A stretch of 64,000 nt of DNA from Frankia sp. AgB1.9 (GTDB taxonomy: Bacteria; Actinomycetota; Actinomycetes; Frankiales; Frankiaceae), in assembly GCF_016786355.1 (NCBI RefSeq), contig NZ_JADWYX010000016.1:1-64000 (forward strand), written 5' to 3'. This document shows, piece by piece, positions 24,850-43,438 of the stretch. A model generated the notes under the pieces. It was given only the letters and a program-made list of their open reading frames with translations. It was not told the origin of the DNA and searched no databases. The position numbers and the translations under genes are program-made. The stretch's first letter is position 1. Every line of letters begins with the position of its first letter.

Positions 24850-25680
24850 TCACTCGGACTTGGCCCGGTCGGCGAAGAAGAAGGACATGGCGTTGTCGTG
24901 GAGCCAGGCCTGGCGGACCTCGTCGGTGAGGCCGAGGTTGGCCGACTCGGCGAGGCAGCGCTCGAACGAGAGCACCGGGTGGTCGGAGGCGAAGATGATT
25001 TTGTCCCGGCCCCGGGTCGACATGTAGTGCAGCAGCGAGGCGGGCAGCCGCTTGGGCGACCAGGCCGACGTCATCAGCCGCAGGTTCCTGTACTTGAGCA
25101 TCAGCCGGATCGCGGTGTCCCACCAGGGGTCGGCCCCGTGGATCATGCACAGCTTCAGCTCGGGGAACCGGTAGCAGACCCGGTCGAGGTAGATCGGGTT
25201 CTGGACCTCACCGGGGATCGGCGGACCGGGGAGGCCGGTGTTCATGCACAGCGGGAGATCGAGCTCGCAGCACTTCGTGTAGAGCGGGTAGTAGACGGCG
25301 TCGGTGGGCGGGTACATCCCGTCGCCCCAGAAGCTCGGCCCGACGGTGGCGGTGGCGACCGGGTAGTCCCGGACGTACGACTCCAGCGTGCGCAGGGCCC
25401 TCATCGGGCGCAGCAGGTTGAAGGTGCCGACGGCGAGGGCGAACCGGTCGGGGCGCTGCTCGGCGTAGCGGGCGGCCCGGTCCGGCCCCTTGTTGGCCCG
25501 CGAGACCAGGATCGCCCGCTCGACACCGGCGGCGTCCATCGCGTCGATCAGCTCGGGCAGCTCGGGGCTGTGGAAGAAGGAGGCGCCGCCCTTGAAGTAG
25601 TCCTCCTTGACGCGCACCATCCACTCCGGCTGCTTGTCGTCGCCCAGGTGGACGTTGACCAGGCAGTCGATGGCCTTCAT
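24850..25680 (-). CDS. amidohydrolase-2 family protein (second)
   Basis: 276 residues; ATG with AAGGTGAGG upstream, start overlapping the stop of the upstream ligase by 4 bp (ATGA), so translation is coupled. COG2159-like TIM barrel, shorter than the first copy. The usual N-terminal DxHxH is reduced (AIDCLVNVHLG), while MIHGADPWWD and IIFASDHPVL are present, the latter with the metal Asp. With one metal ligand motif altered, catalysis could use fewer metals or be lost. It is last in the four-gene - strand operon 29828-24850 and probably acts on a CoA-pathway intermediate or product acid. Confidence 0.8.
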   Translation of the reverse strand: MKAIDCLVNVHLGDDKQPEWMVRVKEDYFKGGASFFHSPELPELIDAMDAAGVERAILVSRANKGPDRAARYAEQRPDRFALAVGTFNLLRPMRALRTLESYVRDYPVATATVGPSFWGDGMYPPTDAVYYPLYTKCCELDLPLCMNTGLPGPPIPGEVQNPIYLDRVCYRFPELKLCMIHGADPWWDTAIRLMLKYRNLRLMTSAWSPKRLPASLLHYMSTRGRDKIIFASDHPVLSFERCLAESANLGLTDEVRQAWLHDNAMSFFFADRAKSE

Positions 25681-27374: not shown

Positions 27375-29007
27375 GCAGCAGCTCCTTGAGGGCGGGCATG
27401 TCGATCTTGCCGCTGGACATCGTCGGCACCTCGTCGTCGGCGAGCAGGACGAACCTGCGCGGCACCTTGTAGGAGGACAGCCGCTCGGCGAGCTGGCCGC
27501 GCAGCTCGTCGGCGTCGACGCCGCGGCCGGACGGCACCCGGACCGCCGCCGCGACGATCTGCCCGCGCGCCGGGTCCTCCAGGCCGACGACGTGCGCCGT
27601 GAGCCCCGCGACGTCGCGGATCACCGCCTCGACCTCGCTCGGCGACACGTTCGCGCCGCCGGTCTTGATCAGGTCGCCGCGCCGGCCATGGAAGTAGTAG
27701 AAGCCCTCGTCGTCGAAGGCGAACAGGTCTCCAGTGCGGAACCACCCGTCGGCGTCGAACACCTCGTGGCGTTCCCTGCCGTAGTAGCCCTCCATCAGGA
27801 ACGGCCCGCGCAGCCACAGCTCCCCCACCGCGCCGACACCGCAGGCCGAACCGTCCGCGTCGACGAGCCGGGCTTCCAGGCCCGGCGCGGGCGGGCCGAA
27901 CGAGCCGCAGCGCCGCTCCGGCTGGTCGCCCTCGTCCGCGCTGACCAGGCAGACGCTGCCGGCCTCGGTCATCCCGAGCATCTGGTGGCGCCGCAGCGGG
28001 TCTTCGGGCCGGACGTCGGGCGGCATGATCGAGTACAGGTTGCCGCGCCGGATCGAGGACAGGTCCCGGCGGGCGAACGTCGGGTCGTTCGGCAGGCCCG
28101 CCACCGACTGGGCGTAGCCGTTGACCATCGTCGGGCGCTCCCGTTCGAGCACGTCGAGCACCCCCGCCGGATTCGACGCGTTCGAGCACACCAGCCGGGC
28201 GCCGGCGACCAGCGTGCCGAGCAGCGCGTAGGCGAACCCGCCGACCCAGAAGAACGGCGAGTTCGAGAAGAGCGCCTCCTCGGGCGTGTAGCGGCGGATC
28301 TCGTTCAGGTTCGCCAGATGCCGGATCAGCGCGCCCTGGGTGTGGACCACGCCCTTCGGCGCGCTCGTCGACCCGGACGTGTGGACGATGACCATCCGGT
28401 CGCTCGGCGCCAGCGACTCCTCGACCGCCGGCGCCAGGTCGTCGTCCACCGTGACGCCGTGGCGCGCGAGCGCGGCAAGGGTCCGGGCCGGGCCGACCCG
28501 CCCGTCGTCGGCGCCGCCGTCCGCCCCGTCGGCGAAGAACACGTGCCGCAGTACCGGCATCGACGCGGCCAGCAGCGGCTGCTCGCCCTGGAGGTCAAGG
28601 TCTCCGACGGCCGACCCGAGCGCGGCCACGTAGTCGTGGCCGCGGAAACCGCGCGCCGCGAGCAGCACCCCGACGTCCGCGTTGTACAACAGTCCGCGCA
28701 GCTCCGCGCTGGTCGAGAACGTGCTCAGCGGGACCGTCACCGCGCCGACCCGCGCGGCGGCCAGCCAGCCGACGACGAAGTCGCTCCCGTTCGGGAACAG
28801 CAGCCCGACGTGGGTCCCCCGGTCGACGCCGAGCGCCAGCAGGCCTCGGGCCAGCTCCCGCGAGCGCCGGTCGGCCTCGGCATAGGTGAGCACGTCGTCG
28901 TCGGACACGAGCAGCACGCGCGGGCCGTACTGCGCGGCCCGCTCACGCAGCAGGGCCGCGACCGTCAGCGGCAGGCCGTCCTCGGCCTCGATCGTCGTCA
29001 CGACCAT
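27361..29007 (-). CDS. acyl-CoA synthetase (AMP-forming)
   Basis: 548 residues; ATG at 29007, two bases after the stop of the upstream hydratase. Motifs: HTSGSTSAPKG ending at 209, LGMTEAGSV, FRTGDLFAFD, FHGRRGDLIKTGGANVSP and MSSGKIDMP with the adenylation Lys. It ligates CoA to a carboxylate with ATP cleavage to AMP. Gene order (hydratase, ligase, ligase, amidohydrolase, all overlapping or within 2 bp) implies a single mRNA under palindrome site f. Confidence 0.9.
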   Translation of the reverse strand: MVVTTIEAEDGLPLTVAALLRERAAQYGPRVLLVSDDDVLTYAEADRRSRELARGLLALGVDRGTHVGLLFPNGSDFVVGWLAAARVGAVTVPLSTFSTSAELRGLLYNADVGVLLAARGFRGHDYVAALGSAVGDLDLQGEQPLLAASMPVLRHVFFADGADGGADDGRVGPARTLAALARHGVTVDDDLAPAVEESLAPSDRMVIVHTSGSTSAPKGVVHTQGALIRHLANLNEIRRYTPEEALFSNSPFFWVGGFAYALLGTLVAGARLVCSNASNPAGVLDVLERERPTMVNGYAQSVAGLPNDPTFARRDLSSIRRGNLYSIMPPDVRPEDPLRRHQMLGMTEAGSVCLVSADEGDQPERRCGSFGPPAPGLEARLVDADGSACGVGAVGELWLRGPFLMEGYYGRERHEVFDADGWFRTGDLFAFDDEGFYYFHGRRGDLIKTGGANVSPSEVEAVIRDVAGLTAHVVGLEDPARGQIVAAAVRVPSGRGVDADELRGQLAERLSSYKVPRRFVLLADDEVPTMSSGKIDMPALKELLRAAR

Positions 29008-29009
29008 GG

Positions 29010-29828
29010 TCAGCGACCGCCGAACTTGGGCTCGCGCCGCTCCCGGAAGGCCGCGAGCCCCTCCCGGAAGTCGCCGGTGCGGGACGACAGCTCCAACGCG
29101 TAGGCCTCCTGCTCCATCGTCTCGGCGAGCCCCAGCTCCAGGCCCCGGTTGACCGACCGCTTGGTCAGCCCGACCGCCACGGTCGCGGCCTGGCCGAGCT
29201 CGGTGACCAGGGCGGCGGTCGCGTCGTCGAGGTCGGCGTCGGGCACCGCCCGGTAGATCAGCCCCCAGTCGGCGGCCTCCCGGCCGGACAGCCTGCGCCC
29301 CAGGATGAGCAGCTCCTTCGCCCGCGCGATGCCGACCAGGCGGGGCAGCAGCCAGGTGGCCCCGCTGTCCGGGCTGAAGCCCCTGGCCAGGAACGGCTCC
29401 CAGAAGCGGCTGGTCTCGGCGGCGACGGTGAAGTCCGCCGCCAGCGCCAGCTGGAACCCGAGCCCGGCCGCGTGCCCGCGCACCGCGCAGACGACGGGCA
29501 GCTGGAGCTCGGTGATCAGCTGGACGAGCCGGTGGGCCTGCAGGGCCGTGCGCCGTTGCACGCTGCCGGTCCGCGGCCGCTCGCCGTCCTTGCTGTTCGA
29601 CGCGACCCAGTCGGCGCCGGAGCAGAAGTCCGGCCCGAGGCTGGACAGCACGACGACCCGCAGGCCGTCGTCGACCGCCGCGTCCTCGAGCGTGGCGATC
29701 AGCAGGCGGACCGTGGCGGGGCCGAGGGCGTTGCGGCGCTCCGGGCGGTTGAGGCCGATCCGCAGCACACCGCCGTCGCGTTCGACGACGACGTCGGCGC
29801 CCGTGGCGGAATCCATGTCGTTCACCAC
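29010..29828 (-). CDS. enoyl-CoA hydratase/isomerase, PaaG-like (second)
   Basis: 272 residues from GTG 29828, or 268 from ATG 29816; no strong ribosome site favours either. Oxyanion motifs FCSGADWV and AAGLGFQLA. The acid segment reads ARGFSPDSGATWLLPRLVG with an Asp as in PaaG-type isomerases. C-terminal RREPKFGGR. First gene of the four-gene - strand operon with two ligases and an amidohydrolase. Palindrome site f lies about 27 bp upstream, where a bound protein would touch the transcription start. Confidence 0.87.
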   Translation of the reverse strand: MVNDMDSATGADVVVERDGGVLRIGLNRPERRNALGPATVRLLIATLEDAAVDDGLRVVVLSSLGPDFCSGADWVASNSKDGERPRTGSVQRRTALQAHRLVQLITELQLPVVCAVRGHAAGLGFQLALAADFTVAAETSRFWEPFLARGFSPDSGATWLLPRLVGIARAKELLILGRRLSGREAADWGLIYRAVPDADLDDATAALVTELGQAATVAVGLTKRSVNRGLELGLAETMEQEAYALELSSRTGDFREGLAAFRERREPKFGGR

Positions 29829-29854
29829 GGCGATGGTAGCGAGGCAGCCCTCAA

Positions 29855-29866
29855 ATATCTAGATGT
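29855..29866. promoter_or_regulatory. island palindrome, site f
   Basis: ATCTAGAT is intact at 29857-29864, with flanks AAAT and GTATT. It is 29 bp upstream of the GTG start of the hydratase that opens the four-gene operon. Confidence 0.6.
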
Positions 29867-29907
29867 ATTGGCGCCCGTGCCGCTCGCCGCCCCAGGACCG
29901 GACCTGG

Positions 29908-31443
29908 TCACGCCAGCACGTCGGACGGCAGCAGGCGGCGGGCGACCTTGCCGGTGGGCAGACGCGGGAACTCGTCCAGGAACCGGACCGAGCGCGGTGC
30001 CTTGAACCGGGCGAGGTGCTCGCGGGCGTAGGCGATGAGCTCGGCCTCCAGCGCGGCAGGGTCGGCCGGGGGGCTCGCGGGCTGGACGACCGCCCGCACC
30101 GACTCGCCCATCTCCGCGTCGGGGACGCCGATGACCACGACGTCCGCGACCCGCGGATGGCGGACCAGGACGTCCTCCAGCTCGCGCGGGTAGATGTTGA
30201 CGCCACCCGAGACGATCATGTTGGTGGCGCGGTCGGTCAGGTAGAGGTAGCCGTCGGCGTCGACATGGCCGATCTCGCCGTAGGTGGCCCAGCCACGGTC
30301 GTCGAACACCGAGGCAGTCTTCTCCGCGTCGCCGTGGTATTCAAAGCGGCGCGCGGCCTCGAAGAAGACCCGGCCGTCGGCGCCGGCCGGCAGCTCCTCG
30401 CCCGCCTCGTCGACGATGTGGACCTTGCCCTGCATCGAACGGCCCACGGAGCCCGGGTGGGCCAGCCACTCCTCGGGCCCGATGAAGCAGAATCCGACGC
30501 CCTCGCTGCCGGCGTAGTACTCGTAGACGATCGGGCCGAGCCACTCCAGCGCCGCCCGTTTGACGTCGACCGGGCACGGCGCGGCGGCGTGGACGAGCGT
30601 CTTCAGGCTGGACAGGTCGTGGCGGGCCCGCTCCTGCTCGGGGAGCTTCAGCAGCCGGACGAGGTGGGTCGGGACGACCTGCGCCATCGTGACCCGGTGG
30701 CGCTCGATCGTCTCGAGGAAGTCGACGGGCTCGAACCGCTCGGTCAGCACGACCGTGCCGCCGATCCGGTGCATCGCGTTGGTCCAGCCCGACGGGGCCG
30801 CGTGGTAGAGCGGAGCGGGGCTCAGGTAGCGGGTGTTCTCGTCGCCGCCGAACAGGAACCGGACCATCGCCGTGAACCCCATCGGCGCGCCCAGCGGGCC
30901 GCCGACCTCGGGCGGCTTGATGCCCTTGGGGCGGCCGGTGGTGCCCGACGAGTAGAACATCCAGGCGCCGTCCGCCTCGTCGTCGATCGGTGTCGACGGG
31001 AAGCCGGCGGCGACCTGTTCGTACAGCTCGAACCCCTCGATCGGCCCGCCGACGGACAGCCGGATCTTCGGGCCGGCGCCGGCCAGCTCGGCCACCACGT
31101 CGGCGCAGGACGCGGAGGCGATCAGCGCGTCGGCGCCGCAGTCCTCGACGATGTAACGGGCCTCGGCGCCGGACAGGTGCCAGTTGATCGGCGTGACCAG
31201 CAGGCCGGCCCGCAGCCCCGCCCAGGTGACCTCGAAGTACTCGGCCCGGTTCTCCATCAGCACCGCGACGTTGGCGCCGATGCCTAATCCGGCCGCGCGC
31301 AGCGCGTGCGCGAGCCGGTTCGACCGAGCCTCCAGCTCCGCGTAGGTGATCGTGACGTCACCGGCGATCACCGCGGGCCGGTCCGGCGCCACGGCGGCGA
31401 ACCACTTCGGATGCTCGAGCTGCGTCGCCACTGTCTCTCCCAT
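29908..31443 (-). CDS. acyl-CoA synthetase (AMP-forming, FadD-like)
   Basis: 511 residues; ATG at 31443 with GGAG upstream, 11 bp after the stop of the next hydratase upstream. Phosphate loop SSGTTGRPKG at 165-174, EYYAGSEGVG for the aromatic/adenylate motif, YLTDRATNMIVSGGVNIYP at the hinge, and LPTGKVARRL with catalytic Lys. It belongs to a different ligase subgroup from the two in the operon to the left, closer to long-chain or steroid-acid ligases of mycobacteria, but the substrate is not readable. Confidence 0.9.
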   Translation of the reverse strand: MGETVATQLEHPKWFAAVAPDRPAVIAGDVTITYAELEARSNRLAHALRAAGLGIGANVAVLMENRAEYFEVTWAGLRAGLLVTPINWHLSGAEARYIVEDCGADALIASASCADVVAELAGAGPKIRLSVGGPIEGFELYEQVAAGFPSTPIDDEADGAWMFYSSGTTGRPKGIKPPEVGGPLGAPMGFTAMVRFLFGGDENTRYLSPAPLYHAAPSGWTNAMHRIGGTVVLTERFEPVDFLETIERHRVTMAQVVPTHLVRLLKLPEQERARHDLSSLKTLVHAAAPCPVDVKRAALEWLGPIVYEYYAGSEGVGFCFIGPEEWLAHPGSVGRSMQGKVHIVDEAGEELPAGADGRVFFEAARRFEYHGDAEKTASVFDDRGWATYGEIGHVDADGYLYLTDRATNMIVSGGVNIYPRELEDVLVRHPRVADVVVIGVPDAEMGESVRAVVQPASPPADPAALEAELIAYAREHLARFKAPRSVRFLDEFPRLPTGKVARRLLPSDVLA

Positions 31444-31454
31444 GGGGGCTCCGG

Positions 31455-32279
31455 TCAGCGACCGTTGGCGGAGGGCTTCGCGAGCTGCTCCTTCATGCCG
31501 TCGAGCAGCATGAGGATCGGCATGCCGCTCTCCGACAGCGCGTGGCCGTGGCCGGTCTGGTGGATGTCGAAGACCGACTGGACCGCCGCGTAGAAGCCCT
31601 GCACGTCGAGCGTCTGGTTGACGGCCCGCTTGGCCTGGCGCAGCGCGAACGGATGCTTGGTCGCGATCTCGGCCGCGAGCGCCCTGGTCGCCTCGCGCAG
31701 GTCAGCCAGCGGGACGACCCTGTTGACCATGCCGACGCGCTCCGCCTCATAGGCGTCCATCTTGCGGCCGGTGAACAGCAGCTCCTTGGCCTTGCGCGGG
31801 CCCATCTCCCAGGTGTGCCCGTGGTACTCGACGCCGCCGATACCCATGTTCACGACCGGGTCGGAGAACGTGGCGTTGTCCGCGGCGATGATCAGGTCAC
31901 AGGGCCAGGCGAGCAGCAGGCCGCCGGAGATGCACACGCCCTGGACGGCGGCGATCGACGGCTTCGGCACGTTGCGCCACCGCAGGCTGTACTCCAGGAA
32001 CCGACGAGACTCGACCTCGTAGATCCCCTCCAGCGTCACCTTCGGCCGGGCACCGTTCGACTCGCCGCCGACACCCTTGATGTCGTGACCGGCGGAGAAG
32101 TGCCTGCCGTTGGCCTGCAGGATGATGACCCGGACCTCGGGGTCGTCGGCGGCCCGCCGCCACGCGGCGTCCAGCTCGTCGAGCAGCTCCAACGTCTGGG
32201 CGTTGGCTGCCTCCGGCCGGTCCAAAGTGATGGTCGCGACGGCGTCGCTGACCTCGTAGTCGATGAACGTCTTCGTCAC
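31455..32279 (-). CDS. enoyl-CoA hydratase/isomerase family protein
   Basis: 274 residues from a GTG with GGAGG 6 bases upstream. Oxyanion motifs FSAGHDIKG (His where Ala is usual) and CISGGLLLA. The segment after it (SDPVVNMGIGGVEYHGHTWE) does not match the two-Glu hydratase pattern, so the exact reaction is open. C-terminal part is long and helical. It leads a two-gene - strand unit with the ligase at 29908; palindrome site g lies about 208 bp upstream, nearer to the divergent hydratase at 32560. Confidence 0.85.
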   Translation of the reverse strand: MTKTFIDYEVSDAVATITLDRPEAANAQTLELLDELDAAWRRAADDPEVRVIILQANGRHFSAGHDIKGVGGESNGARPKVTLEGIYEVESRRFLEYSLRWRNVPKPSIAAVQGVCISGGLLLAWPCDLIIAADNATFSDPVVNMGIGGVEYHGHTWEMGPRKAKELLFTGRKMDAYEAERVGMVNRVVPLADLREATRALAAEIATKHPFALRQAKRAVNQTLDVQGFYAAVQSVFDIHQTGHGHALSESGMPILMLLDGMKEQLAKPSANGR

Positions 32280-32486
32280 GACCGGCCTCCAGGACTGTCG
32301 AGCACGGCGTTGTCTCGATTGACGCCGATGGGGACAACGTCGCGCAAGCGGTCAGAGGTCCGCGCGCCGCGCGCGGAGCAGATGCTGGCCGCGACGCCGC
32401 GCCGGCGGCCGGTCAAGGCCGGCACGCCACCGCCCGTCACCCCTGAGCGCCTCGTACTGCGGCGATGCTAGCCAGCGACCCCACTA

Positions 32487-32500
32487 ATGTCTAGATATAT
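32487..32500. promoter_or_regulatory. island palindrome, site g
   Basis: TCTAGA core at 32490-32495 inside ATGTCTAGATATAT; the left outer base departs from the consensus (GTCTAGAT). It sits 60 bp before the rightward hydratase start. Confidence 0.5.
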
Positions 32501-32559
32501 ACGATGGGGTACCGGCAGGGCATCCTTCCGGGTGGCGGCGGCGACGAGGAGAACCTGCG

Positions 32560-33504
32560 ATGGGTGAAGGACAGACGCGGGACGGCCGCGTGCTGCTGGA
32601 GCGTGACGAGTCCCGCGGCATCGCCCGGCTCACCCTCGACAACCCCGCCCGCCGCAACGCCTACGACCCCGCGATGCGCGCCCAGCTCGCCGCCCACCTC
32701 GACGATCTCGCCGACGACGACACCATCAAGGTCGTCATCCTGCGCGGCAGCGACGACGTCTTCTCCACCGGCGCCGACATGGGCAACGCCTACGCCTGGT
32801 ACGGCGCCGGCACCAATCCCGACGACAACGCCGCGCGCAGCCGACGGCCCAGCCAACGCCGCCGCCTCACCGTCGACCGCCGAAGCTTCGACTTCTACCA
32901 CCAGTTCCTCGGCTACCCCAAGGTCACGGTCGCCGAGGTCAACGGCTATGCGCTCGGCGGCGGCTTCGAACTGGCCCTCATGGCCGACATCAGCGTCATC
33001 GGCGCCACCACCCGCATCGGCATGCCGGCCACCCGCTTCCTCGGCCCCGCCCTCGGCTCCCTGCACATGTTCTTCCACCGCCTCGGCCCCGTCACCGCCC
33101 GGCGCCTCCTGCTCACCGGCGACATCATCCCCGCCGCCGACCTCGCCCACCTCGGTATCTTCACCGAGGTCGTCGACGACGACGCGGTGACCGCCCGAGC
33201 CGAACACTGGGCCCGCAAAGCCGCGAAAATGCCCGCCGACGGCATCACCATCGCCAAAGAAGCCTTCCGCCTCGTCGAACAACTCCAGGCCTACCAAGGC
33301 GAAGAAACCACCAGCTACCTCATCCACGCCTACGGCACCAACCTCCGCTTCGAAGACGACGAATTCAACTTCGTCAAGACCCGCGCCCAACACGGCACCA
33401 AGAAAGCCTTCCAACTCCGCGACGCCCACTTCGACATCACCGACGAACCACTCTTCACCTCCCCCAACGGCCGGGAGCCGACGTTCGGAGCGCCCGCCGG
33501 CTGA
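32560..33504 (+). CDS. enoyl-CoA hydratase/isomerase family protein, unusual codon use
   Basis: 314 residues; ATG with GAGGAG 7-8 bases upstream. Crotonase motifs FSTGADMGN and YALGGGFELALMAD. It is longer than usual at the N-terminal loop (about residues 85-110, Arg-rich) and has an extended C-terminal helical part. Codon use differs from neighbours: the last third uses GAA, CAA and AAA freely and avoids G-ending Leu codons in favour of CTC. That suggests a separate origin or recent arrival. It starts the rightward unit with the AttH/CrtC-like gene 52 bp downstream. Confidence 0.86.
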   Translation: MGEGQTRDGRVLLERDESRGIARLTLDNPARRNAYDPAMRAQLAAHLDDLADDDTIKVVILRGSDDVFSTGADMGNAYAWYGAGTNPDDNAARSRRPSQRRRLTVDRRSFDFYHQFLGYPKVTVAEVNGYALGGGFELALMADISVIGATTRIGMPATRFLGPALGSLHMFFHRLGPVTARRLLLTGDIIPAADLAHLGIFTEVVDDDAVTARAEHWARKAAKMPADGITIAKEAFRLVEQLQAYQGEETTSYLIHAYGTNLRFEDDEFNFVKTRAQHGTKKAFQLRDAHFDITDEPLFTSPNGREPTFGAPAG

Positions 33505-33556
33505 GGCCTCGCCGCCTCGCCTGTCGTCGGGTCCACCCGCTGAGAGGAATCCGCTG

Positions 33557-34687
33557 GTGCTCATTCCCTTTGACGACTACCCGGTGCACCAGACCGCGCT
33601 TCCGCTCGCGCACGCCGGCGACGGCCACCCGGACCAGTACGACCGGTTCTGGTTCAACGGCTACGACGAGAACATGTACTTCGCCGTCGCGCTCGGCCTC
33701 TACCCGAACCGCGGCATCATCGACGCCGCGTTCAGCGTCGTCCACGACGGCGTCCAGCGGTCGGTGTTCGCCTCCGGCCGGATCCCGCTGGACCGCACCC
33801 AGACCAGAATCGGCCCGATCTCCATCGAGATCGTCGAACCGATGCGGGTCGCCCGGATCGTCGTCACCGCCCCGGAGCACGGGCTCGTCGCGGACCTGAC
33901 CGCGACCGCCAGGACGTCCGCGTACGAGGAACCCCGCCAGACCCGGCACGCCGGCACCGTGATGGTCATGGACGTCACCCGGGCCACCCAGCTGGTCACC
34001 TGGTCGGGCACCCTCTCGTCCGGTGGCACGGACATTCCGCTCGGCACGCCCACCTACGGCACCAAGGACCGTTCCTGGGGTATCCGCGGCGTCGGCGACC
34101 CCGCTCCGGCCGCGCCCCGCAACGTGCCGGCGCAGCTGTGTTTCTTCTGGGCTCCGCTGAACTTTCCCGACCAGTGCCTGCACTACCTGCGCTTCGAGGA
34201 CGCCCGCGGCGTCCCGTGGTCGGAGACCGCGGCCGTCCTGCCCGTGCTGGGCGACGAGGCACCGATCTTCGGCGCCGAAACGGGGATTCGCCGGCTGGAC
34301 GGGGTCAGTCACGAGATCCGCTGGGCCCCGGGGCTGCGTCGTTCCGAGGGTGCCACGATCCGGCTCGGGGCCGGCGAGACCGTCGAGCTGGAGCCCATCC
34401 GGACCTTCCGGATGAAGGGCGTCGGCTATCTCCACCCGACCTGGGGCCACGGGAAGTGGCACGGTGAGCTGGCCGTCGGCGGCGAGGCCCACAAGGCCGC
34501 CGACCTCGACGTCCTCGCGTTCGACACCATTCACGTGCAGCAGGTCATGCGCGCGACCTGGGGTGACCGGACCGGCCTCGGCGTCCTCGAACAGGTCGTG
34601 ATCGGCCCCTACGCCCCCGGCGGCTTCACCGAGCTCCTCGACGGCGCCGCGCCGAGGACCGCGCCGGCCGCCCCCGATCCGGCCTGA
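33557..34687 (+). CDS. AttH/CrtC lipocalin-like protein of unknown function
   Basis: 376 residues from a GTG at 33557 with AGAGGA 8 bases upstream. No signal peptide or membrane helix. The sequence is rich in beta strands and has Trp/Asp motifs such as DRSWGIRGVGD and WFNGYDENMYF that recall the AttH/CrtC (hydroxyneurosporene synthase) double-barrel fold. From family knowledge related proteins hydrate or reshape hydrophobic substrates and often accompany acyl-CoA catabolic genes in actinobacteria. The assignment rests on local motif likeness only. It ends the island and faces ohrR across a hairpin. Confidence 0.55.
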   Translation: MLIPFDDYPVHQTALPLAHAGDGHPDQYDRFWFNGYDENMYFAVALGLYPNRGIIDAAFSVVHDGVQRSVFASGRIPLDRTQTRIGPISIEIVEPMRVARIVVTAPEHGLVADLTATARTSAYEEPRQTRHAGTVMVMDVTRATQLVTWSGTLSSGGTDIPLGTPTYGTKDRSWGIRGVGDPAPAAPRNVPAQLCFFWAPLNFPDQCLHYLRFEDARGVPWSETAAVLPVLGDEAPIFGAETGIRRLDGVSHEIRWAPGLRRSEGATIRLGAGETVELEPIRTFRMKGVGYLHPTWGHGKWHGELAVGGEAHKAADLDVLAFDTIHVQQVMRATWGDRTGLGVLEQVVIGPYAPGGFTELLDGAAPRTAPAAPDPA

Positions 34688-34750: not shown

Positions 34751-35194
34751 CTAGGCGGTGCGCAGCGAGTCGACGATCGTCGTCAGCTCGCCGATGAGCC
34801 GCAGGGCGGTCGGGATGTCGATGCCGTAACGCTGGAAGACCCGCTGTGGGACGTCGGCGGCCTTCGCCCGCAGGGCCGTTCCCTGTTCGGTCAGCGAGAC
34901 GAGGACCCGGCGCTCGTCCGCCGGGTCCCGGGTCCGGTCGGCCAGGCCGAGATCTTCCAGGCGCTTGAGCAGCGGAGTCAGAGTGCCGCTGTCGAGGTGC
35001 AGGCTCGCGCCGATGTCGCCGACCGTCCGCGGTTCCTGCGCCTCCCAGAGCACCAGCATCGTGAGGTACTGCGGGTAGGTCAGGCCAAGCTCCGCGAGAA
35101 CCGGCCCGTAGGCCCGGATCGCGTAACGGCTCGCGCTGTAGAGCGCGAAGCACAGCTGGTTGCCGAGCTCCAGCTGCGGGAGGCGATCGGCCAT
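34751..35194 (-). CDS. ohrR: OhrR-like MarR-family regulator
   Basis: 147 residues from the ATG at 35194. The N terminus LELGNQLCFALYSASR matches the OhrR signature with the peroxide-reactive Cys near residue 15, and YGPVLAELGLTYPQYLTML is equally typical. A MarR winged helix follows (LHLDSGTLTPLLKRLEDLGL, RDPADERRVLVSLT). In known cases organic peroxides oxidise the Cys, releasing the repressor from the ohr promoter. No ohr peroxidase gene is adjacent, so its target must be elsewhere, or it controls only itself. The ribosome site is weak. Confidence 0.8.
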   Translation of the reverse strand: MADRLPQLELGNQLCFALYSASRYAIRAYGPVLAELGLTYPQYLTMLVLWEAQEPRTVGDIGASLHLDSGTLTPLLKRLEDLGLADRTRDPADERRVLVSLTEQGTALRAKAADVPQRVFQRYGIDIPTALRLIGELTTIVDSLRTA

Positions 35195-35327: not shown

Positions 35328-36383
35328 CTAGGGACGGGCGAGGCGCGCGGCCGACGTGAGCAGTTCCGCCGCGAGGGCCGCGTCGCCGCTGATCGCGGCG
35401 CGCGCCGCCTCGGGCGCCCGCCGGTTCGCGGCCACCAGGCAGAACTCGACCGTGTCGAGGACCAGCCCCGCCGCGGGCTCGATCGCGCCGAGCCCGGCAG
35501 GGGGCGGACCACCGAGGTGGACCAGCCAGGCGCCGCCACCAGGCCCGGTCAGCGTGAGGCGCACGGCACCGGCCGGCGCCGTGGCGGCGCGGGGTGGCAG
35601 GGCGCCGAGCAGTCCCGCGGCGAGGTCGGCCATCGCGGCGAGGCTGTCAGCGGGCGGCGACGGCACCGTCAGGCCGGCCGCGACACCGAGGTCGCGGGCG
35701 TGTATCCAGGTCTCGAAGGCACGCGCGACCAGGTGGGAGCCCACCGGCAGGCGCAGGCCGTCGACCTCGACCCACTCCCGCGCGAGCGCCGGCTCGGCGC
35801 GGATCCGCTCCGCCATGGCCGCGATGCCGTCGCGCCACAGCCGCGCGACGCGTGCCCGCGGCCAGCCGTCCACCCACCGCAGCAGGCGTTCGGTGTGGGC
35901 CACCAGGTCGACGTCCGCGGCCACGGGTGGATCGACCGCGATCGCGACCGCGTCGGCCACCAGGGCGTTGCCCGCGGCCAGGTGGGTGACCAGATCGCCC
36001 AACCGCCAGGTGAGGACCGGGCTGGGCCGCAGCAGGACGTCGTCGCTCACCTCGGCGAGCACCACGTCGAGCATCCCGGCCGTGGCCCCGAACGCGGCGG
36101 CGAACGCGGGCAGCTCGGGTGCCGGGCGCCGCCGCGCGCGGGCGGCCGCGAGCACCCGCGACAGCGCGGGCCCGGGCCCGGTGCCGTCGTCCGGCGCGCG
36201 CAGCAGCTGCTCGATTTCCCGGCGCTCGGCCTCGGCCCGCGCGCAGGCCGGGCATTCGTCGAGATGGTCGGCCAGCGGTCCGACGTCCGCCGCGTCGCAC
36301 AGGTGCGACGCCAGCCTGGTCAGGTTGCCCGGATGCGGGTCGGAGGCAGGCGCGCCGGCCGCGTGCCCATCAGAATTCGTCAT
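35328..36383 (-). CDS. zinc-finger anti-sigma factor fused to a maleylpyruvate-isomerase-like domain
   Basis: 351 residues; start overlaps the sigma gene stop by 4 bp (ATGA). Residues ~25-55 hold an anti-sigma zinc motif, HLDECPACA (H-x3-C-x2-C). Residues ~90-250 look like the DinB/mycothiol-dependent maleylpyruvate isomerase N-terminal fold (LTWRLGDLVTHLAAGNALV, WVEVDG, HARDLGVAAGL), and the last ~90 resemble the SCP2-like C-terminal part. No membrane helix is evident. The model is a cytosolic anti-sigma factor that senses through a thiol- or metal-binding enzyme-like domain. Confidence 0.75.
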   Translation of the reverse strand: MTNSDGHAAGAPASDPHPGNLTRLASHLCDAADVGPLADHLDECPACARAEAERREIEQLLRAPDDGTGPGPALSRVLAAARARRRPAPELPAFAAAFGATAGMLDVVLAEVSDDVLLRPSPVLTWRLGDLVTHLAAGNALVADAVAIAVDPPVAADVDLVAHTERLLRWVDGWPRARVARLWRDGIAAMAERIRAEPALAREWVEVDGLRLPVGSHLVARAFETWIHARDLGVAAGLTVPSPPADSLAAMADLAAGLLGALPPRAATAPAGAVRLTLTGPGGGAWLVHLGGPPPAGLGAIEPAAGLVLDTVEFCLVAANRRAPEAARAAISGDAALAAELLTSAARLARP

Positions 36384-36967
36384 CCGCCGATACCTTCCTC
36401 GGCGAGAGCCCGGGCGATGCGCGCCAGTGCGCTGCGCATTCGTGATTTCGCCGTACCCTCCGGGATTCCGAGCTCGGCCGCTACTTCACGGTAGGTCATC
36501 TCCCGGTAGAACGCCAACTCGACCGCGATCCGCAAGGACTCGGGAAGACCGGCGACGGTATGCCGTACCCGGCAGAAGGTGTCTGCCACCTCCACTGTTT
36601 CTGCGGCACTCGGCACCGCCTCCGGCGGCGGCCCGAACCGGCCGGCCGCGGCCCGCTGGCGTTCCTCCGCACGCACCCAGTCGACGGCCCGGCGGTGCGC
36701 CAGCATTGCCAGCCAGCTTCGCAAAGCGGCCCGGTTCGGGTCATAGCGCAGCGGCCGCTCCCAGAGATACCCGAACACGTCCTGGACGATGTCGCCGGCC
36801 GCGTCCCGATCGCGGGTAACCCGCTGGGCAAGCGTCTGAACAAGGTTTCCAAACAGCCTGTAGGCCTCGCACAACGCGCTCTCGTCACCGGCGACCAGCC
36901 GCCTGTGCAGTTCCGCGTCCGCCGACGCCATCTCGGTCGTCGGCCGCGGGCGGTCCCCCGTCACCAC
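36380..36967 (-). CDS. ECF-family RNA polymerase sigma factor
   Basis: 195 residues from GTG 36967 (AGGGGGG 6 bases upstream; GTG 36964 equally possible, and the frame is open to 37060). Region 2 spans about residues 25-90 (QRVTRDRDAAGDIVQDVFGYL, AALRSWLAMLAHRRAVDWVR) and region 4 about 130-190 (LPESLRIAVELAFYREMTY, EVAAELGIPEGTAKSRM). No region 3, as expected of ECF factors. It is cotranscribed and translationally coupled with its anti-sigma partner. No promoter match was identified. Confidence 0.9.
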   Translation of the reverse strand: MVTGDRPRPTTEMASADAELHRRLVAGDESALCEAYRLFGNLVQTLAQRVTRDRDAAGDIVQDVFGYLWERPLRYDPNRAALRSWLAMLAHRRAVDWVRAEERQRAAAGRFGPPPEAVPSAAETVEVADTFCRVRHTVAGLPESLRIAVELAFYREMTYREVAAELGIPEGTAKSRMRSALARIARALAEEGIGG

Positions 36968-37085
36968 ACGTCCACCCCCCTGGAGGGAGGTGATTCTAAC
37001 GTGGACGCTATTCCCGACAGGGTGAACTTCTCGGGTCGGGGCCGCGTCGTGCCGGCTCACAGCCCGGCCCCGACCGAAGAGGACT

Positions 37086-37478
37086 TCAGCCGGCGAGCAG
37101 CGCGGCCCAGTGCGCGGTGTCGAAGTACTCGGTCATCCGCGTCGCCTTGCCGTCGGCGAGCACCCAGTCGTGGACGAAGCCCGACGTGACGACGTGGCCG
37201 GAATCCGACTGGGCCTCCAGCAGGCCGAACGCGATGACGCGGTCTCCTGCCTCGACGAACTCCAGGGGTCGCACCGCCATGTTCTCGCCATAGGCGGCGA
37301 GCACCTTGCCGAAGAAGGACTGCAACTCGCCGTGGCCCTTGTAGACGCCGGCCAGGTCACGCGGCGACCCGGCCGGAGACGTCCACTCGATGTCCGGCGC
37401 GAACCTGGCGAACAGGTCCACGACGTCGCCCCTGGAAAACGCCTCGTAGCCGCCCTTGATGATCTCGGTGTTCGTCAC
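37086..37478 (-). CDS. SnoaL/NTF2-like protein
   Basis: 130 residues from GTG 37478, chosen for GGAGG about 8 bases upstream; the open frame runs to 37535. The cone-shaped NTF2-like fold is suggested by GGYEAFSRGDVVDLFARFAPDIEW, WTSPAG, and FVHDWVLADGKATRMTEYFDT. Members include polyketide cyclases, ketosteroid-isomerase-like enzymes and ligand-binding proteins; the sequence does not show which. A perfect CRP-type palindrome lies about 90 bp upstream. Confidence 0.75.
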   Translation of the reverse strand: MTNTEIIKGGYEAFSRGDVVDLFARFAPDIEWTSPAGSPRDLAGVYKGHGELQSFFGKVLAAYGENMAVRPLEFVEAGDRVIAFGLLEAQSDSGHVVTSGFVHDWVLADGKATRMTEYFDTAHWAALLAG

Positions 37479-37567
37479 GCGAAAGCCTCCGCTCAGCTCC
37501 CCGCCCCCGAAACGTGCGTGCGGGTCGCGAGCCATTCGCGTGGCGGGCGCCGACGGATCACCGCACT

Positions 37568-37589
37568 GACTGTGACCTGGGTCACAGTC
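37568..37589. promoter_or_regulatory. perfect CRP/GlxR-type operator
   Basis: GACTGTGACC and GGTCACAGTC are perfect inverted 10-mers around TG. It matches TGTGA-N6-TCACA exactly, the CRP-family consensus (GlxR or Crp in actinobacteria). Located 90 bp before the NTF2-like start and 34 bp after the stop of the SDR upstream. Confidence 0.65.
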
Positions 37590-37622
37590 GAATCTGAGTG
37601 GCGCCGCCCGTCCGGCGGGGGC

Positions 37623-38561
37623 TCAGCCGGCCAGGGTCTGGACCGAGACCTCCCACAGGTGGGAGGCGGCCTCGGGGTCGAGCGCGAACGGGGCGACGCC
37701 GTTGCGGGCGGTGAGCACGCCGACCTCGGCCTCGTTGCAGTCCTCGAAGTAGCGCCCGCCGACGCCGTCGAGCAGCGGCGCGGTCGCGACCAGGACGGAG
37801 GTGGCGGCGCCCTGCTCGGGGGTCTTCCACTTCAGGCCGCTACCGCCGGCCGCGGTCCGCATCTGCTCCAGCACCTCGTCGGGCACGTACCGCTGCAGGT
37901 TCGTGCGAATCCCGCCCGGCATGAGCGCGTTGACGGTGATCCCGTCCGTGGCCCACCGCTTGCTGGCCTCGACGGCGAACAGCACGTTGGCCGTCTTCGA
38001 CTGCCCGTAGGCCGAGAACGGGTCGTACGGGCGGCGCTCGAAGTGGATGTCGTCGAAGACCACCGGGGACCGGTGGTGCGCGCTGGAGCTGACCGACACG
38101 ACCCGGGCGCGGCCGGCCGCGGCCAGCGCGTCGTGCAGCCCGACCGCGAGGGCGAAGTGGCCCAGGTGGTTGGTCGCGAACTGCATCTCCCAGCCCTCGG
38201 GCGTACGCGCCAGCGGGGACGCCATGACCCCGGCGTTGTTGACGAGGATGTCCAGCGGGCCGTCCCAGCCGGCGACGAAGGCGGCGACCGAAGCCTGGTC
38301 GGCCAGGTCGAGCCGGGCGACCAGGATCTGCTTGCTGCCGGTGGCGGCCGCGAGGTCGGCGGCGACCCGGTCGCCAGCCCCGACGTCGCGGACGGCCAGC
38401 GTCACCTCGGCACCGGCGCCGGCGAGGGCCCGCGCCGTCTCGACACCGATCCCCGAGGCACCGCCCGTGACGACGATGCGCCGGCCCGTGAGGTCGATGC
38501 CCTCGATCACCTCGGCGGCGGTCGACTGGGCTGAGAACGAAGTGGTGATCCGGTCGGTCAT
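37623..38561 (-). CDS. SDR oxidoreductase, retinol-dehydrogenase-like
   Basis: 312 residues. Motifs TGGASGIG near 33-40, NNAGVM, Ser in SVSSSAHH, YGQSK (Tyr/Lys pair), and PGGIRTNLQRY. The extended segment FDDIHFERRPYDPFSAY and length fit the retinol dehydrogenase/WWOX-like SDRs common in actinobacteria; NADP(H) use is likely. The substrate is unknown. Divergent from a TetR gene with two 18-bp operators between them, so it is most likely the regulator's target. Confidence 0.87.
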   Translation of the reverse strand: MTDRITTSFSAQSTAAEVIEGIDLTGRRIVVTGGASGIGVETARALAGAGAEVTLAVRDVGAGDRVAADLAAATGSKQILVARLDLADQASVAAFVAGWDGPLDILVNNAGVMASPLARTPEGWEMQFATNHLGHFALAVGLHDALAAAGRARVVSVSSSAHHRSPVVFDDIHFERRPYDPFSAYGQSKTANVLFAVEASKRWATDGITVNALMPGGIRTNLQRYVPDEVLEQMRTAAGGSGLKWKTPEQGAATSVLVATAPLLDGVGGRYFEDCNEAEVGVLTARNGVAPFALDPEAASHLWEVSVQTLAG

Positions 38562-38636: not shown

Positions 38637-38655
38637 TCATTCCGGAGGTGATGTG

Positions 38656-39222
38656 ATGGCGGCCACGCGGGCCCTGCGCGCCGACGCCCAGCGCAATCGG
38701 GACCGGCTGCTGGAGGTCGCCGTCCGGGTGCTGTCCCAGGCCGGTCCCGACGTGCCGCTGGAGGCGATCGCGAAAGAGGCCGGTGTGGGGATCGGCACGC
38801 TCTACCGCCACTTCCCCAGCCGGGAGGCGCTGGTCGACGCGGCCTACCGCAACGAGCTCGACCGGCTGGCCGACGCCGTCGACGACCTCCTGCGCGACCT
38901 GCCGCCCGATCGCGCCCTGCGCGGCTGGATGGACCGGTTCGTCGACTACCTCGCCGCCAAGCGCGGCATGGGCGACGCACTGCGTGCGCTCATCGCCTCC
39001 GGTGGCGACCCGTTCGCGCACAGCCGCGACCGGCTGACCACCGCCGTCGGGACGCTGCTGCGGGCCGGAGCGGCGGCCGGGACGCTGCGCGCGGACGTGG
39101 CCTCCGACGACATCCTGGTCAGCCTCAGCGCGCTGTCGCTCGCCTCCGCCGACCGCGGCGACCGCGAACAGGCCGGCCGCCTACTGGACCTCCTCATGGA
39201 CGCGCTACGCGTTCGCGCCTGA
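38656..39222 (+). CDS. TetR-family transcriptional regulator
   Basis: 188 residues from ATG 38656 (GGAGG 7 bases upstream; GTG 38653 overlaps). Helix-turn-helix VPLEAIAKEAGVGIGTLYRHF, then PSREALVDAAYRNE, the pattern common in regulators of SDR genes. The C-terminal domain resembles the TetR_C group found with such divergent oxidoreductases. It probably represses itself and the SDR through the paired palindromes; the inducer is unknown. Confidence 0.9.
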   Translation: MAATRALRADAQRNRDRLLEVAVRVLSQAGPDVPLEAIAKEAGVGIGTLYRHFPSREALVDAAYRNELDRLADAVDDLLRDLPPDRALRGWMDRFVDYLAAKRGMGDALRALIASGGDPFAHSRDRLTTAVGTLLRAGAAAGTLRADVASDDILVSLSALSLASADRGDREQAGRLLDLLMDALRVRA

Positions 39223-39254: not shown

Positions 39255-40121
39255 TTACTTCGGCTTCTGGGACGCGGCGGCGTCGGGCCGCAGTTCCGCG
39301 AGGCTGAGTTGATGCGCCGGCTTGTCGGGCACCGCGATCCGGCGGGTGATCCGCAGATCGGGTCCGGCGTGGAGCAGTTCGCCGGGCTCCATCGGGCGCC
39401 ACATCGGGCTGTCGTCCATCTCTTCGCTGGCGATGACGAGCGCGGGTGCGGCGGCCAGGTCGGGGGAATGGACTCGCATCCGGCCGTTCGTGCCGCTGTG
39501 GTCGAGGTGGCGGTCGCCGTGGTGGCCACCGGCCTGGCGTTCGAGCGTGTACAGCTGGTGGGTGTCGGGATAGCGCAACGCCCAGAGCTCACGCTGGGTC
39601 GTGACGATCAGGTTGAGGGAGTAGAGCGGCAGGTTCGCGGCGACCCAGCGGGCCGCTCGTTCGATGCCGGTGGCCACGTCCCCGGAACTCCTGATCTCCC
39701 GGGTGATCAGAGCGAAGAACCGCTCGGAGTCCGTGTCGCCCTTCACCAGGGAGCGGTCCGGGCCGAGTTCGGCGTCAAGCTGGTCCAGGCCCTCGACTAC
39801 CCCGTTGTGCGCGAACATCCGCCCCTCCTGCTCGAAGGGATGGGTATTGCGCTGTTCCACGGCACCGGTCGAGGCGAATCGGATGTGAGCGAGGAAGGTG
39901 GCCGATTCGACCTTCCGGGCCTCCTGCGCGAAACCCCGGTCCTCATAGGCCGCGATCGGCGCCTTGTACAGCTCGGGAGCGCCGTCGGCGTCGAAGAAGC
40001 CGATCCCGGCGCCGTCCGGCTCCTGGCGGCTCTGGTCGCTGAGGCTGTCCGGGGCGTCCAGCAGCCAGAACGTGGCGCGGGTGCGCAGCGGCGCGCTGCT
40101 CATTCCGAACAGACGACACAT
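39255..40121 (-). CDS. class II glutamine amidotransferase
   Basis: 288 residues beginning MCRLFGMSS; after Met removal Cys2 is the N-terminal nucleophile of GATase class II. Further motifs: QEPDGAGIGFF, LAHIRFASTG, NTHPFEQEGRMFAHNG and GDTDSERFF. It resembles YafJ/EgtC-like stand-alone amidohydrolases. EgtC acts in ergothioneine synthesis, but no egt genes are nearby, so a general gamma-glutamyl hydrolase role is as likely. The upstream MFS gene on the same strand ends 81 bp before it. Confidence 0.85.
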   Translation of the reverse strand: MCRLFGMSSAPLRTRATFWLLDAPDSLSDQSRQEPDGAGIGFFDADGAPELYKAPIAAYEDRGFAQEARKVESATFLAHIRFASTGAVEQRNTHPFEQEGRMFAHNGVVEGLDQLDAELGPDRSLVKGDTDSERFFALITREIRSSGDVATGIERAARWVAANLPLYSLNLIVTTQRELWALRYPDTHQLYTLERQAGGHHGDRHLDHSGTNGRMRVHSPDLAAAPALVIASEEMDDSPMWRPMEPGELLHAGPDLRITRRIAVPDKPAHQLSLAELRPDAAASQKPK

Positions 40122-41654: not shown

Positions 41655-42004
41655 CGGGCATACCTCGCGACCGAGGCGCAACGGGCGCTCAGCCGGCGGG
41701 GTGACGGGTCCCGGATGCGTCGACTCGGCCACGCCCGACCGCCGGCACGCCGCGCAGCGGCCGGCGCCCCGTTCGAGGTGGACCTCGGGAGGCGGGCCTG
41801 GTCCGCGAAACGACCGTCGACTCTGATGACTGCGTCGACTACTGAGGGTTACGCGGACTGCTGGGCGGCTCGGTGCGGCGCGGTCGCGTAGCACGAAAGC
41901 CGACAAATCATAGCATCGCCCGACGGTTGGGAGGGAGCCCTCGACGTCCCGGGCTCGGCCACGCCCTGTCGCCAGGCTGGTCGGCTCCGCATAGCCTTTG
42001 CCGC
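41655..42004. other. 350-bp divergent intergenic region, no gene seen
   Basis: It separates the leftward MFS gene from the rightward decarboxylase gene. Longer open frames run through it but lack coding character. A small AT-rich patch near 41900-41918 may hold a promoter for the decarboxylase. No repeat or palindrome of note. Confidence 0.5.
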
Positions 42005-43438
42005 GTGGCGCTGCACAGGCAAGCGGTGGGAGACCAGGCGGACGCGCGGCTGGCCGTCCGCCCACAGTTCCGCTGGCCCGCGGGGCAGACGCACCCGGGC
42101 CAGGGGGTCAGCGGCGAGCTGCCGCGCTACCGCATCCCGGCCGGGCCGACGGCCCCTGAGACGGCCTACCAGCTCGTGCACGACGAGCTGATGCTCGACG
42201 GCAACGCCCGGTTGAACCTCGCCACGTTCGTGACGACCTGGATGGACCCACACGCGGACCGGCTGATGGCCGAGTGCGCCGCCAAGAACATGATCGACAA
42301 GGACGAGTACCCGCAGACCGCCGAGCTGGAGGCGCGCTGCGTGAGCATGCTCGCCGACCTCTGGCACGCCGCGGACGCGGCCGACGCGGTCGGCTGCTCG
42401 ACGACCGGCTCGTCCGAGGCGGGCATGCTCGCCGGTCTGGCGATGACCCGCCGGTGGCGGGCCGCGCGCCGCGCCGCGGGCCAGCCGGCCGACCGGCCGA
42501 ACCTGGTGATGGGCGCGAACGTCCAGGTCTGCTGGGAGAAGTTCGCCCGCTACTGGGACGTCGAGGCCCGCCTGGTGCCGCTCGCGCCCGGGCGCACCCA
42601 CCTCACCGCCGACGAGGCCGTGCGGCACTGCGACGAGAACACCGTCGGCGTCGTCGCGATCCTCGGCTCGACGTTCGACGGGACGTACGAGCCGGTCGCC
42701 GAGATCGTCTCGGCGCTCGACCGGCTCGCGGCCGGCGGCGGTCCCGACGTGCCGGTTCATGTCGACGCGGCGTCCGGCGGCTTCGTCGCCCCCTTCTGCG
42801 ACCCCGACCTGCTCTGGGACTTCCGGCTCGACCGGGTGGTCTCGATCAACGCGTCGGGCCACAAGTTCGGCCTGGTCTACCCGGGCGTCGGCTGGGTGCT
42901 GTGGCGCGACCGCGAGCACCTGCCCGAGGAGCTCGTCTTCCACGTCGACTACCTGGGCGGCACGATGCCGACCTTCGCGCTCAACTTCTCCCGGCCCGGC
43001 GCGCAGGTCGTCGCGCAGTACTACTCGCTGCTGCGCCATGGCCGCGAGGGCTACCGGCAGGTGATCCAGGGCTGCCGGGACGTCGCGACCCGCCTGTCCG
43101 ACCAGATCGCCGCGATGGGCCCCTTCGAGCTGGTCTCCGACGGCGCCGGCGGGGGCATTCCCGCGTTCGCGTTCACGCTGCGCGACGCCGACACGGCCGG
43201 GTTCAGCGTGTTCGACGTGTCGGAGCTGCTGCGGACCCGAGGCTGGCAGGTTCCCGCCTACCGGTTCCCGCCGGCGCTGGAGGAGCTCGCCGTGCTGCGG
43301 GTCGTCGTGCGCAACGGGTTCGGTCCGGACCTGGCCGACCTGCTGGTCGCCGACCTACGCCGCGTCGTCGACCGGCTCACCGACGCGAGCCACCCCGGTC
43401 CGCCGCCCGCCGAGACCACATCTGCCTTCCACCACTGA
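42005..43438 (+). CDS. PLP-dependent glutamate decarboxylase-like enzyme
   Basis: 477 residues from GTG 42005; the start is uncertain because no clear ribosome site is present and the frame is open from 41873. GAD-type motifs: NLATFVTTWMDPHADRLM, KNMIDKDEYPQT, the PLP site VGCSTTGSSEAGML, HVDAASGGFVAPF, and SINASGHKFGLVYPG with the Schiff-base Lys at about residue 287. It should convert glutamate to GABA with CO2 release. A GadC antiporter is not adjacent, so an acid-resistance role is not supported by context. Confidence 0.9.
   Translation: MALHRQAVGDQADARLAVRPQFRWPAGQTHPGQGVSGELPRYRIPAGPTAPETAYQLVHDELMLDGNARLNLATFVTTWMDPHADRLMAECAAKNMIDKDEYPQTAELEARCVSMLADLWHAADAADAVGCSTTGSSEAGMLAGLAMTRRWRAARRAAGQPADRPNLVMGANVQVCWEKFARYWDVEARLVPLAPGRTHLTADEAVRHCDENTVGVVAILGSTFDGTYEPVAEIVSALDRLAAGGGPDVPVHVDAASGGFVAPFCDPDLLWDFRLDRVVSINASGHKFGLVYPGVGWVLWRDREHLPEELVFHVDYLGGTMPTFALNFSRPGAQVVAQYYSLLRHGREGYRQVIQGCRDVATRLSDQIAAMGPFELVSDGAGGGIPAFAFTLRDADTAGFSVFDVSELLRTRGWQVPAYRFPPALEELAVLRVVVRNGFGPDLADLLVADLRRVVDRLTDASHPGPPPAETTSAFHH

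Follow-up and report, generated by a model that had tools for sequence, protein, structure and literature searches.

The window analysed here, the whole stretch of 64,000 nucleotides (64 kb) from the soil bacterium Frankia sp. AgB1.9, carries at 35328-36967, on the minus strand, a two-gene pair encoding an ECF sigma factor and a soluble anti-sigma factor. The start of the anti-sigma gene overlaps the stop of the sigma gene by 4 bp (ATGA). The features of the pair are as follows.

36380..36967, minus strand: gene of the ECF sigma factor, 195 aa counted from the GTG start, coordinates including the stop codon; Sigma70_r2 and Sigma70_r4 above cut-off
36659..36862, minus strand: sigma region 2 (residues 36-103); Pfam Sigma70_r2, 44.8 bits, above cut-off
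36416..36553, minus strand: sigma region 4 (residues 139-184); Pfam Sigma70_r4, 42.8 bits, above cut-off
35328..36383, minus strand: gene of the soluble anti-sigma factor, 351 aa, coordinates including the stop codon; its ATG lies within the stop of the sigma gene (ATGA)
36129..36335, minus strand: class I anti-sigma domain (residues 17-85); a profile of 23 relatives matches ChrR, RslA, RskA and RsiW in the PDB
36243..36266, minus strand: zinc motif H40-x3-C44-x2-C47, from the sequence; HxxxCxxC in 72/90 relatives
36129..36170, minus strand: anti-sigma helix 4 (residues 72-85), RRRP at its end; R85 kept in relatives
35688..36071, minus strand: MDMPI_N / DinB-fold metal-binding bundle (residues 105-232); PF11716, 41.9 bits, cut-off 24.2
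35982..35984, minus strand: predicted metal ligand H134, aligned with H52 of 2NSF; 90/90 relatives
35712..35714, minus strand: predicted metal ligand E224, aligned with E144 of 2NSF; 88/90 relatives
35700..35702, minus strand: predicted metal ligand H228, aligned with H148 of 2NSF; 90/90 relatives
35367..35633, minus strand: MDMPI_C / SCP2-like domain (residues 251-339), containing C315; PF07398, 21.0 bits, below the cut-off of 29.5; SCP2 folds at Z 8.7-9.4

The sigma factor was read from the GTG at 36967, the alternatives being a start at 37060, which would give 226 aa, or an ATG start at 36931. It belongs to the ECF group according to the general model TIGR02937 (72.3 bits, cut-off 42.9), and its closest relatives in the PDB are R. 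sphaeroides RpoE (2.6e-24) and M. tuberculosis SigK (1.3e-20). SigK was also the top NCBIfam model, with a subfamily score of 121.2 bits that stays below the cut-off of 226.

Anti-sigma domain and predicted metal-binding half

The N-terminal part of the anti-sigma protein has the architecture of class I anti-sigma factors, a four-helix domain encoded beside an ECF gene, as judged from the family profile and from helices predicted at residues 21-28, 31-43, 45-61 and 72-84, the first of them at low confidence (AlphaFold2). When the window protein alone was searched by sequence against the PDB no match was obtained, and Pfam zf-HC2 gave none at E<=1. The matches came from the family profile, for which anti-sigma domains ranked first (ChrR 6.8e-5, RslA 1.9e-4, RskA 0.0059), and zf-HC2 matched 7 of 10 relatives scanned, 6 of them above the 22.2 cut-off. 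Together with H40, C44 and C47, these matches are the basis for reading a zinc finger in the window protein, and they bear out the zinc-type domain proposed in a preliminary description made from the sequence. According to PMC7406223, class I anti-sigma factors contact sigma4 through helices 1-3 and sigma2 through helix 4.

The C-terminal half has the MDMPI fold (DinB plus SCP2-like), the model placing the anti-sigma helices first, then a DinB-type bundle and then an alpha/beta domain. Residues 91-348 superpose on 2NSF, the mycothiol-dependent maleylpyruvate isomerase of C. glutamicum (Z 15.8, rmsd 4.0, 220 residues), which was the top structural match and the sole one to cover both domains. 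Single-domain DinB folds followed from Z 14.6, while the M. tuberculosis mycothiol S-transferase with mycothiol and zinc (8F5V) reached Z 10.4 and SCP2 proteins Z 8.7-9.4. The SCP2-like part is thus supported by structure, since the 2NSF match runs to residue 348, and the MDMPI/DinB and SCP2-like assignment of the preliminary description is confirmed by this superposition and by the MDMPI_N score. The closest profile families of this half are TIGR03084 and TIGR03083, of mycothiol-type metal-binding proteins, the latter scoring 51.5 bits, narrowly above its cut-off of 50. The window protein and 2NSF have in common the two-domain fold and the metal triad; 2NSF is without an anti-sigma domain and only 16% identical to the window protein, whose enzyme activity is putative.

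In the family profile alignment, H134, E224 and H228 fall on chain positions 72, 164 and 168 of 2NSF. Allowing for a 20-residue tag, we infer that these are H52, E144 and H148, which fits the H52A title of 2NSG, and we take the three to be the zinc ligands of that enzyme. The window protein therefore has the His/Glu/His triad of mycothiol-dependent enzymes. No transmembrane helix was found in the protein, the top 19-residue hydropathy (1.66, from residue 91) falling in the first helix of the modelled DinB bundle, so that the predicted lack of a membrane anchor also stood.

The AlphaFold2 model was built with 23 sequences (mean pLDDT 85.8, pTM 0.76); residues 1-29 lie below pLDDT 50. The Foldseek and VIA lists were filled with matches of the sensor half, so that the anti-sigma half was hardly probed by fold.

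Among known systems, RpoE/ChrR of R. sphaeroides (ECF11 type) is the top PDB match for both window proteins. ChrR is likewise soluble and joins a zinc anti-sigma domain at its N terminus to a second metal-binding unit, the sensor, at its C terminus; that sensor is a cupin, whereas the one in the window is of MDMPI type and not a cupin. RsrA and RshA are soluble actinobacterial proteins with an HxxxCxxC anti-sigma domain, as is the window protein, but unlike it they are without an MDMPI sensor domain. RskA, the partner of SigK, has the class I anti-sigma domain in common with the window protein and differs in being membrane-bound. Table 1 of PMC8999054 includes in ECF19 members with a soluble anti-sigma factor, for instance Streptomyces albus WP_016472479.1. 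A literature search, with subscription papers and the Casas-Pastor 2021 ECF reclassification outside its scope, returned no description of an anti-sigma/MDMPI fusion. The architecture may already be tabulated, since soluble ECF19 anti-sigma factors are listed in that table and anti-sigma domains are classified in PMC7406223, where the domain data stand in figures only.

The host genome encodes the mycothiol ligase MshC (608.7 bits, cut-off 485.1) and, elsewhere, a separate true RsrA (101 bits). Mycothiol is therefore probably available in the host, and a classical thiol-redox switch is covered by another pair. Outside the class, MshC was above cut-off in 4 of 8 genomes, the same model also matching something in 14 of 14 control genomes, presumably cysteinyl-tRNA synthetases by homology. 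Against mycothiol as the ligand count the genome G418, which is from another class and has the fusion but showed no clear MshC, and the fact that proteins of the DinB fold use several different thiols.

Relatives of the pair and loss of the zinc bundle

Relatives were collected by a protein search of 58 related genomes (17 matched), by a seeded scan of the genome collection (30 loci in Actinomadura, Streptomyces, Kibdelosporangium, Virgisporangium, Frankia and MAGs) and by profile searches within the class (393 genomes, 171 with a match at 1e-15, matches below about 120 bits looking standalone) and within the phylum (396 genomes, 14 with a match at 1e-40). Rows with a profile score of at least 100 bits numbered 111, and 90 distinct ones were left once identical rows had been removed; lower scores were dropped. 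Six seed peptides were used. One of them, AFETWIHA, spans E224 and H228, so that triad counts from the 30 seeded loci are biased; the remaining loci came from whole-protein or profile searches, with a profile (A1) itself built from the seeded set and the window. Many of the 90 are close Streptomyces-type orthologues and hence not independent. Among the matches listed in the class search are 38 genomes of one genus (g24), probably Streptomyces judging from a gene order common with named Streptomyces loci, and each of the 38 matched at 3.9e-86 or better.

A sigma gene on the same strand adjoins 84 of the 90 distinct relatives, which makes the pairing other than chance; the sigma/MDMPI-anti-sigma pair is a widespread actinobacterial family. 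The coupling of the two genes, which had been proposed from the window alone, is in this way confirmed, along with the Pfam matches and the 4-bp overlap. The sigma gene comes first in 78 of the 84 pairs, with a 4-bp overlap in 67 of those 78. The reversed order, with the anti-sigma gene ahead, was seen at L045, L050, L051, L052 and L012/L068. No sigma gene was found at L047 and L100, and L046 ends at a contig end.

The metal triad reads HEH in 88 of the 90 relatives and HAH in the other two (L112 and L117), and W183, R221 and C315 are kept in 89. Both HAH proteins are sigma-linked and keep the two histidines, which makes them natural test cases for the role of the metal. The zinc motif HxxxCxxC was found in 72 relatives; its profile positions are gaps in 17 and other residues in one (L042). 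A sigma gene nevertheless adjoins 15 of these 18 proteins, so that the pair can evidently do without its zinc domain. The preliminary description thus holds for the pair, the domains and the missing membrane anchor, and is weakened where it lets sigma binding by the zinc domain decide. The triad is present in all 18.

Seventeen relatives have no anti-sigma helices 1-3, or none that can be recognised, but retain helix 4 and the triad. R85 is kept in all 17 (and in 69 of the 73 others), most have the helix-4 pattern LRxxxLxxARxRRP, and 14 are beside a sigma gene. The model of one of them, Actinomadura L028 (pLDDT 91.9), opens with helix 4 (residues 6-19), followed by an intact MDMPI fold. In a tree of the sensor part, four Actinomadura proteins without the bundle (support 0.999) form a nested group next to zinc-bearing relatives from Actinomadura (0.944), and the bundle-less Frankia L007 is nested among zinc-bearing Frankiaceae proteins (0.922). 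Because of these two placements, the zinc bundle is, on the tree, to be regarded as lost at least twice. Two further bundle-less groups, of 8 and 3 proteins, were placed less firmly, with a support of 0.175 at the ingroup root. Frankia canadensis has two sigma/MDMPI-anti-sigma pairs on one contig (L060, 4124-10530, and L026), one with the zinc motif and one without.

Standalone MDMPI relatives served as control. They form one clade (support 1.0) apart from the sigma-linked proteins. No same-strand linked sigma gene was found in any of the 18, a weak sigma match at L138 being on the other strand, and none has helix 4, a single chance R at position 85 in L132 being read as lying before the domain. 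HEH and W183/R221/C315 are present in 18 of 18. Taken together, sequence and structure comparison establish the pairing, the two-part architecture, the conserved triad and the repeated loss of the zinc bundle with helix 4 and the triad kept.

Candidate signal input of the anti-sigma factor

In what follows, the binding of the sigma factor, the occupancy of the metal site, the ligand, the regulon and the direction in which the system responds are our inferences. With moderate confidence, we favour a ChrR-like system in which the MDMPI metal pocket, and not the zinc finger, would sense mycothiol, a mycothiol conjugate or an electrophile. The anti-sigma domain would keep the ECF sigma factor inactive, with helices 1-3 and zinc on sigma4 and helix 4 on sigma2. 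The sensor would be a recruited mycothiol-enzyme fold of MDMPI type with its His/Glu/His metal site intact; once mycothiol, a conjugate or an electrophile was bound or turned over at the metal, helix 4 would be presented differently and the sigma factor set free. The idea of a thiol or electrophile signal in the preliminary description gains from the intact, near-universal triad (88/90) and from the MshC of the host, which make mycothiol or one of its conjugates a realistic candidate for the ligand. The triad is kept where the zinc bundle is lost, which makes the metal pocket the better candidate for signal input, with helix 4 as that for the essential output, and suggests that the enzyme-like half does the sensing. 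Counting against a sensor are the change of E224 to A in two sigma-linked relatives and the MDMPI_C score of the window protein, which is under the cut-off. Conservation of the triad also agrees with a working enzyme that has no sensor role, and it is just as strict in the standalone relatives.

A redox switch in the zinc finger itself, after the manner of RsrA and RshA, would have oxidation of C44 and C47 eject the zinc and free the sigma factor, leaving the MDMPI half as a scaffold or side enzyme. The motif in the window and in 72 of 90 relatives speaks for it, as do a weak match to the RsrA equivalog TIGR03988 (18.5 bits, below its cut-off of 62.5) and the redox-sensing soluble zinc anti-sigma factors described in section 4 of PMC8999054. 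We consider it unlikely, given that 18 of 90 relatives are without the motif, 15 of them beside a sigma gene and all with the triad, and that the genome has its true RsrA elsewhere.

The MDMPI half may instead be a trigger enzyme, a mycothiol transferase or isomerase that is active and renders the inducer harmless while the anti-sigma domain rides along. Its pocket positions are as conserved as in the standalone proteins (HEH 88/90 against 18/18, W183/R221/C315 89/90 against 18/18), and for the same reason the triad does not separate sensor from enzyme. With neighbours that vary and no substrate or pathway context, this alternative appears quite improbable on its own; it is compatible with the ChrR-like reading, the two being inseparable by sequence.

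More tentatively, and rather doubtfully at present, the family may represent a new class of trigger-enzyme anti-sigma factors, in which a mycothiol-type metalloenzyme would control an ECF sigma factor through one sigma2-binding helix, the zinc bundle being dispensable and lost more than once. Were this true, the metal-bound mycothiol adduct state would read electrophile load directly into transcription, and an actinobacterial sigma/anti-sigma switch would read mycothiol chemistry by an enzyme pocket and not by cysteine oxidation, alongside SigR/RsrA. The bundle-less relatives would then provide a minimal anti-sigma factor made up of one helix and a ligand pocket. They would put the dual-interface model of class I anti-sigma factors directly to the test, and might serve as a small-molecule-responsive part for gene control in actinobacteria.

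Neighbouring genes and promoters

Around the pair, the window carries the following genes.

24853-34684: three AMP-binding (acyl-CoA ligase-like) genes, enoyl-CoA hydratases, an amidohydrolase and an Rv3169-family protein
34754-35194, minus strand: OhrR-type regulator of the MarR family, immediately 3' of the anti-sigma gene; NF052638, 143.6 bits, cut-off 200
37089-38561, minus strand: genes for SnoaL-like and SDR proteins, immediately 5' of the sigma gene; a TetR gene (38653-39219) runs divergently from them
39258-40121, minus strand: class II glutamine amidotransferase, weakly EgtC-like (87.8 bits, cut-off 218.65)
41873-43435, plus strand: glutamate decarboxylase, above cut-off

No neighbour gene was conserved across the subgroups of relatives. 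The SnoaL/SDR genes upstream and the OhrR-like MarR gene downstream form one block common only to the window and its nearest relative (L056 of genome G001). MarR genes of one loose cluster also adjoin the pair in Actinomadura L029 and Streptomyces L046 and L053, and the last, a second Streptomyces paralogue, has MarR and old-yellow-enzyme genes nearby. Genes of one cluster lie beside or near the pair in L027, L037, L039 and L042, with an AlkZ-like glycosylase (Pfam) in Actinomadura L027 and in the MAG L042. The AlkZ-like, MarR and old-yellow-enzyme neighbours give a hint of electrophile or alkylation stress; as neighbours vary between subgroups, no regulon backs an electrophile signal.

The region upstream of the operon had been singled out for a target promoter of the sigma factor, and by eye no autoregulatory ECF promoter common to the subgroups was found there. 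In the window and its nearest relatives, -10-like hexamers (TAGAAT, TACGAT) stand just ahead of the sigma start. At Streptomyces-type loci (for example L067, 8400-8564) a conserved block that contains ACAAAGGGGCGTGCG and GTGCCGACTACATTCGA lies ahead of the sigma gene, by a divergent STAS-domain gene. A TTGTCRGTG-N8-TANNNT-like site, which we take to be PafBC-like, was found upstream of the Streptomyces-type sigma gene of L070, and 2 others among more than 80 upstream regions have a less exact version of it; as a common feature, a DNA-damage promoter of this type was rejected, the exact-type site being present in 1 locus only.

The S. coelicolor member of the sigma family may be SCO4409, judging from the STAS neighbour, from the label of SCO4410 and from the gene order around SCO4409, which we take to be that of the Streptomyces-type loci. 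PMC2631018 labels SCO4410 'anti anti sigma factor' and gives SCO4409 as upregulated by acid shock; PMC6742748 gives SCO4409 a promoter with a 12-nt spacer, and repair genes are enriched in the class to which this promoter belongs. A circuit for DNA damage or alkylation, with a sensor detecting an alkylating agent or its mycothiol adduct and a sigma factor driving DNA repair, would agree with this promoter class, with the L070 site and with the clustered genes near four pairs, two of them with the AlkZ-like gene, but is highly improbable, since the site is so rare, the AlkZ-like gene is absent beside the window pair and the link to SCO4409 goes through a presumed gene order and the STAS neighbour. 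The same literature search returned nothing on SCO4408.
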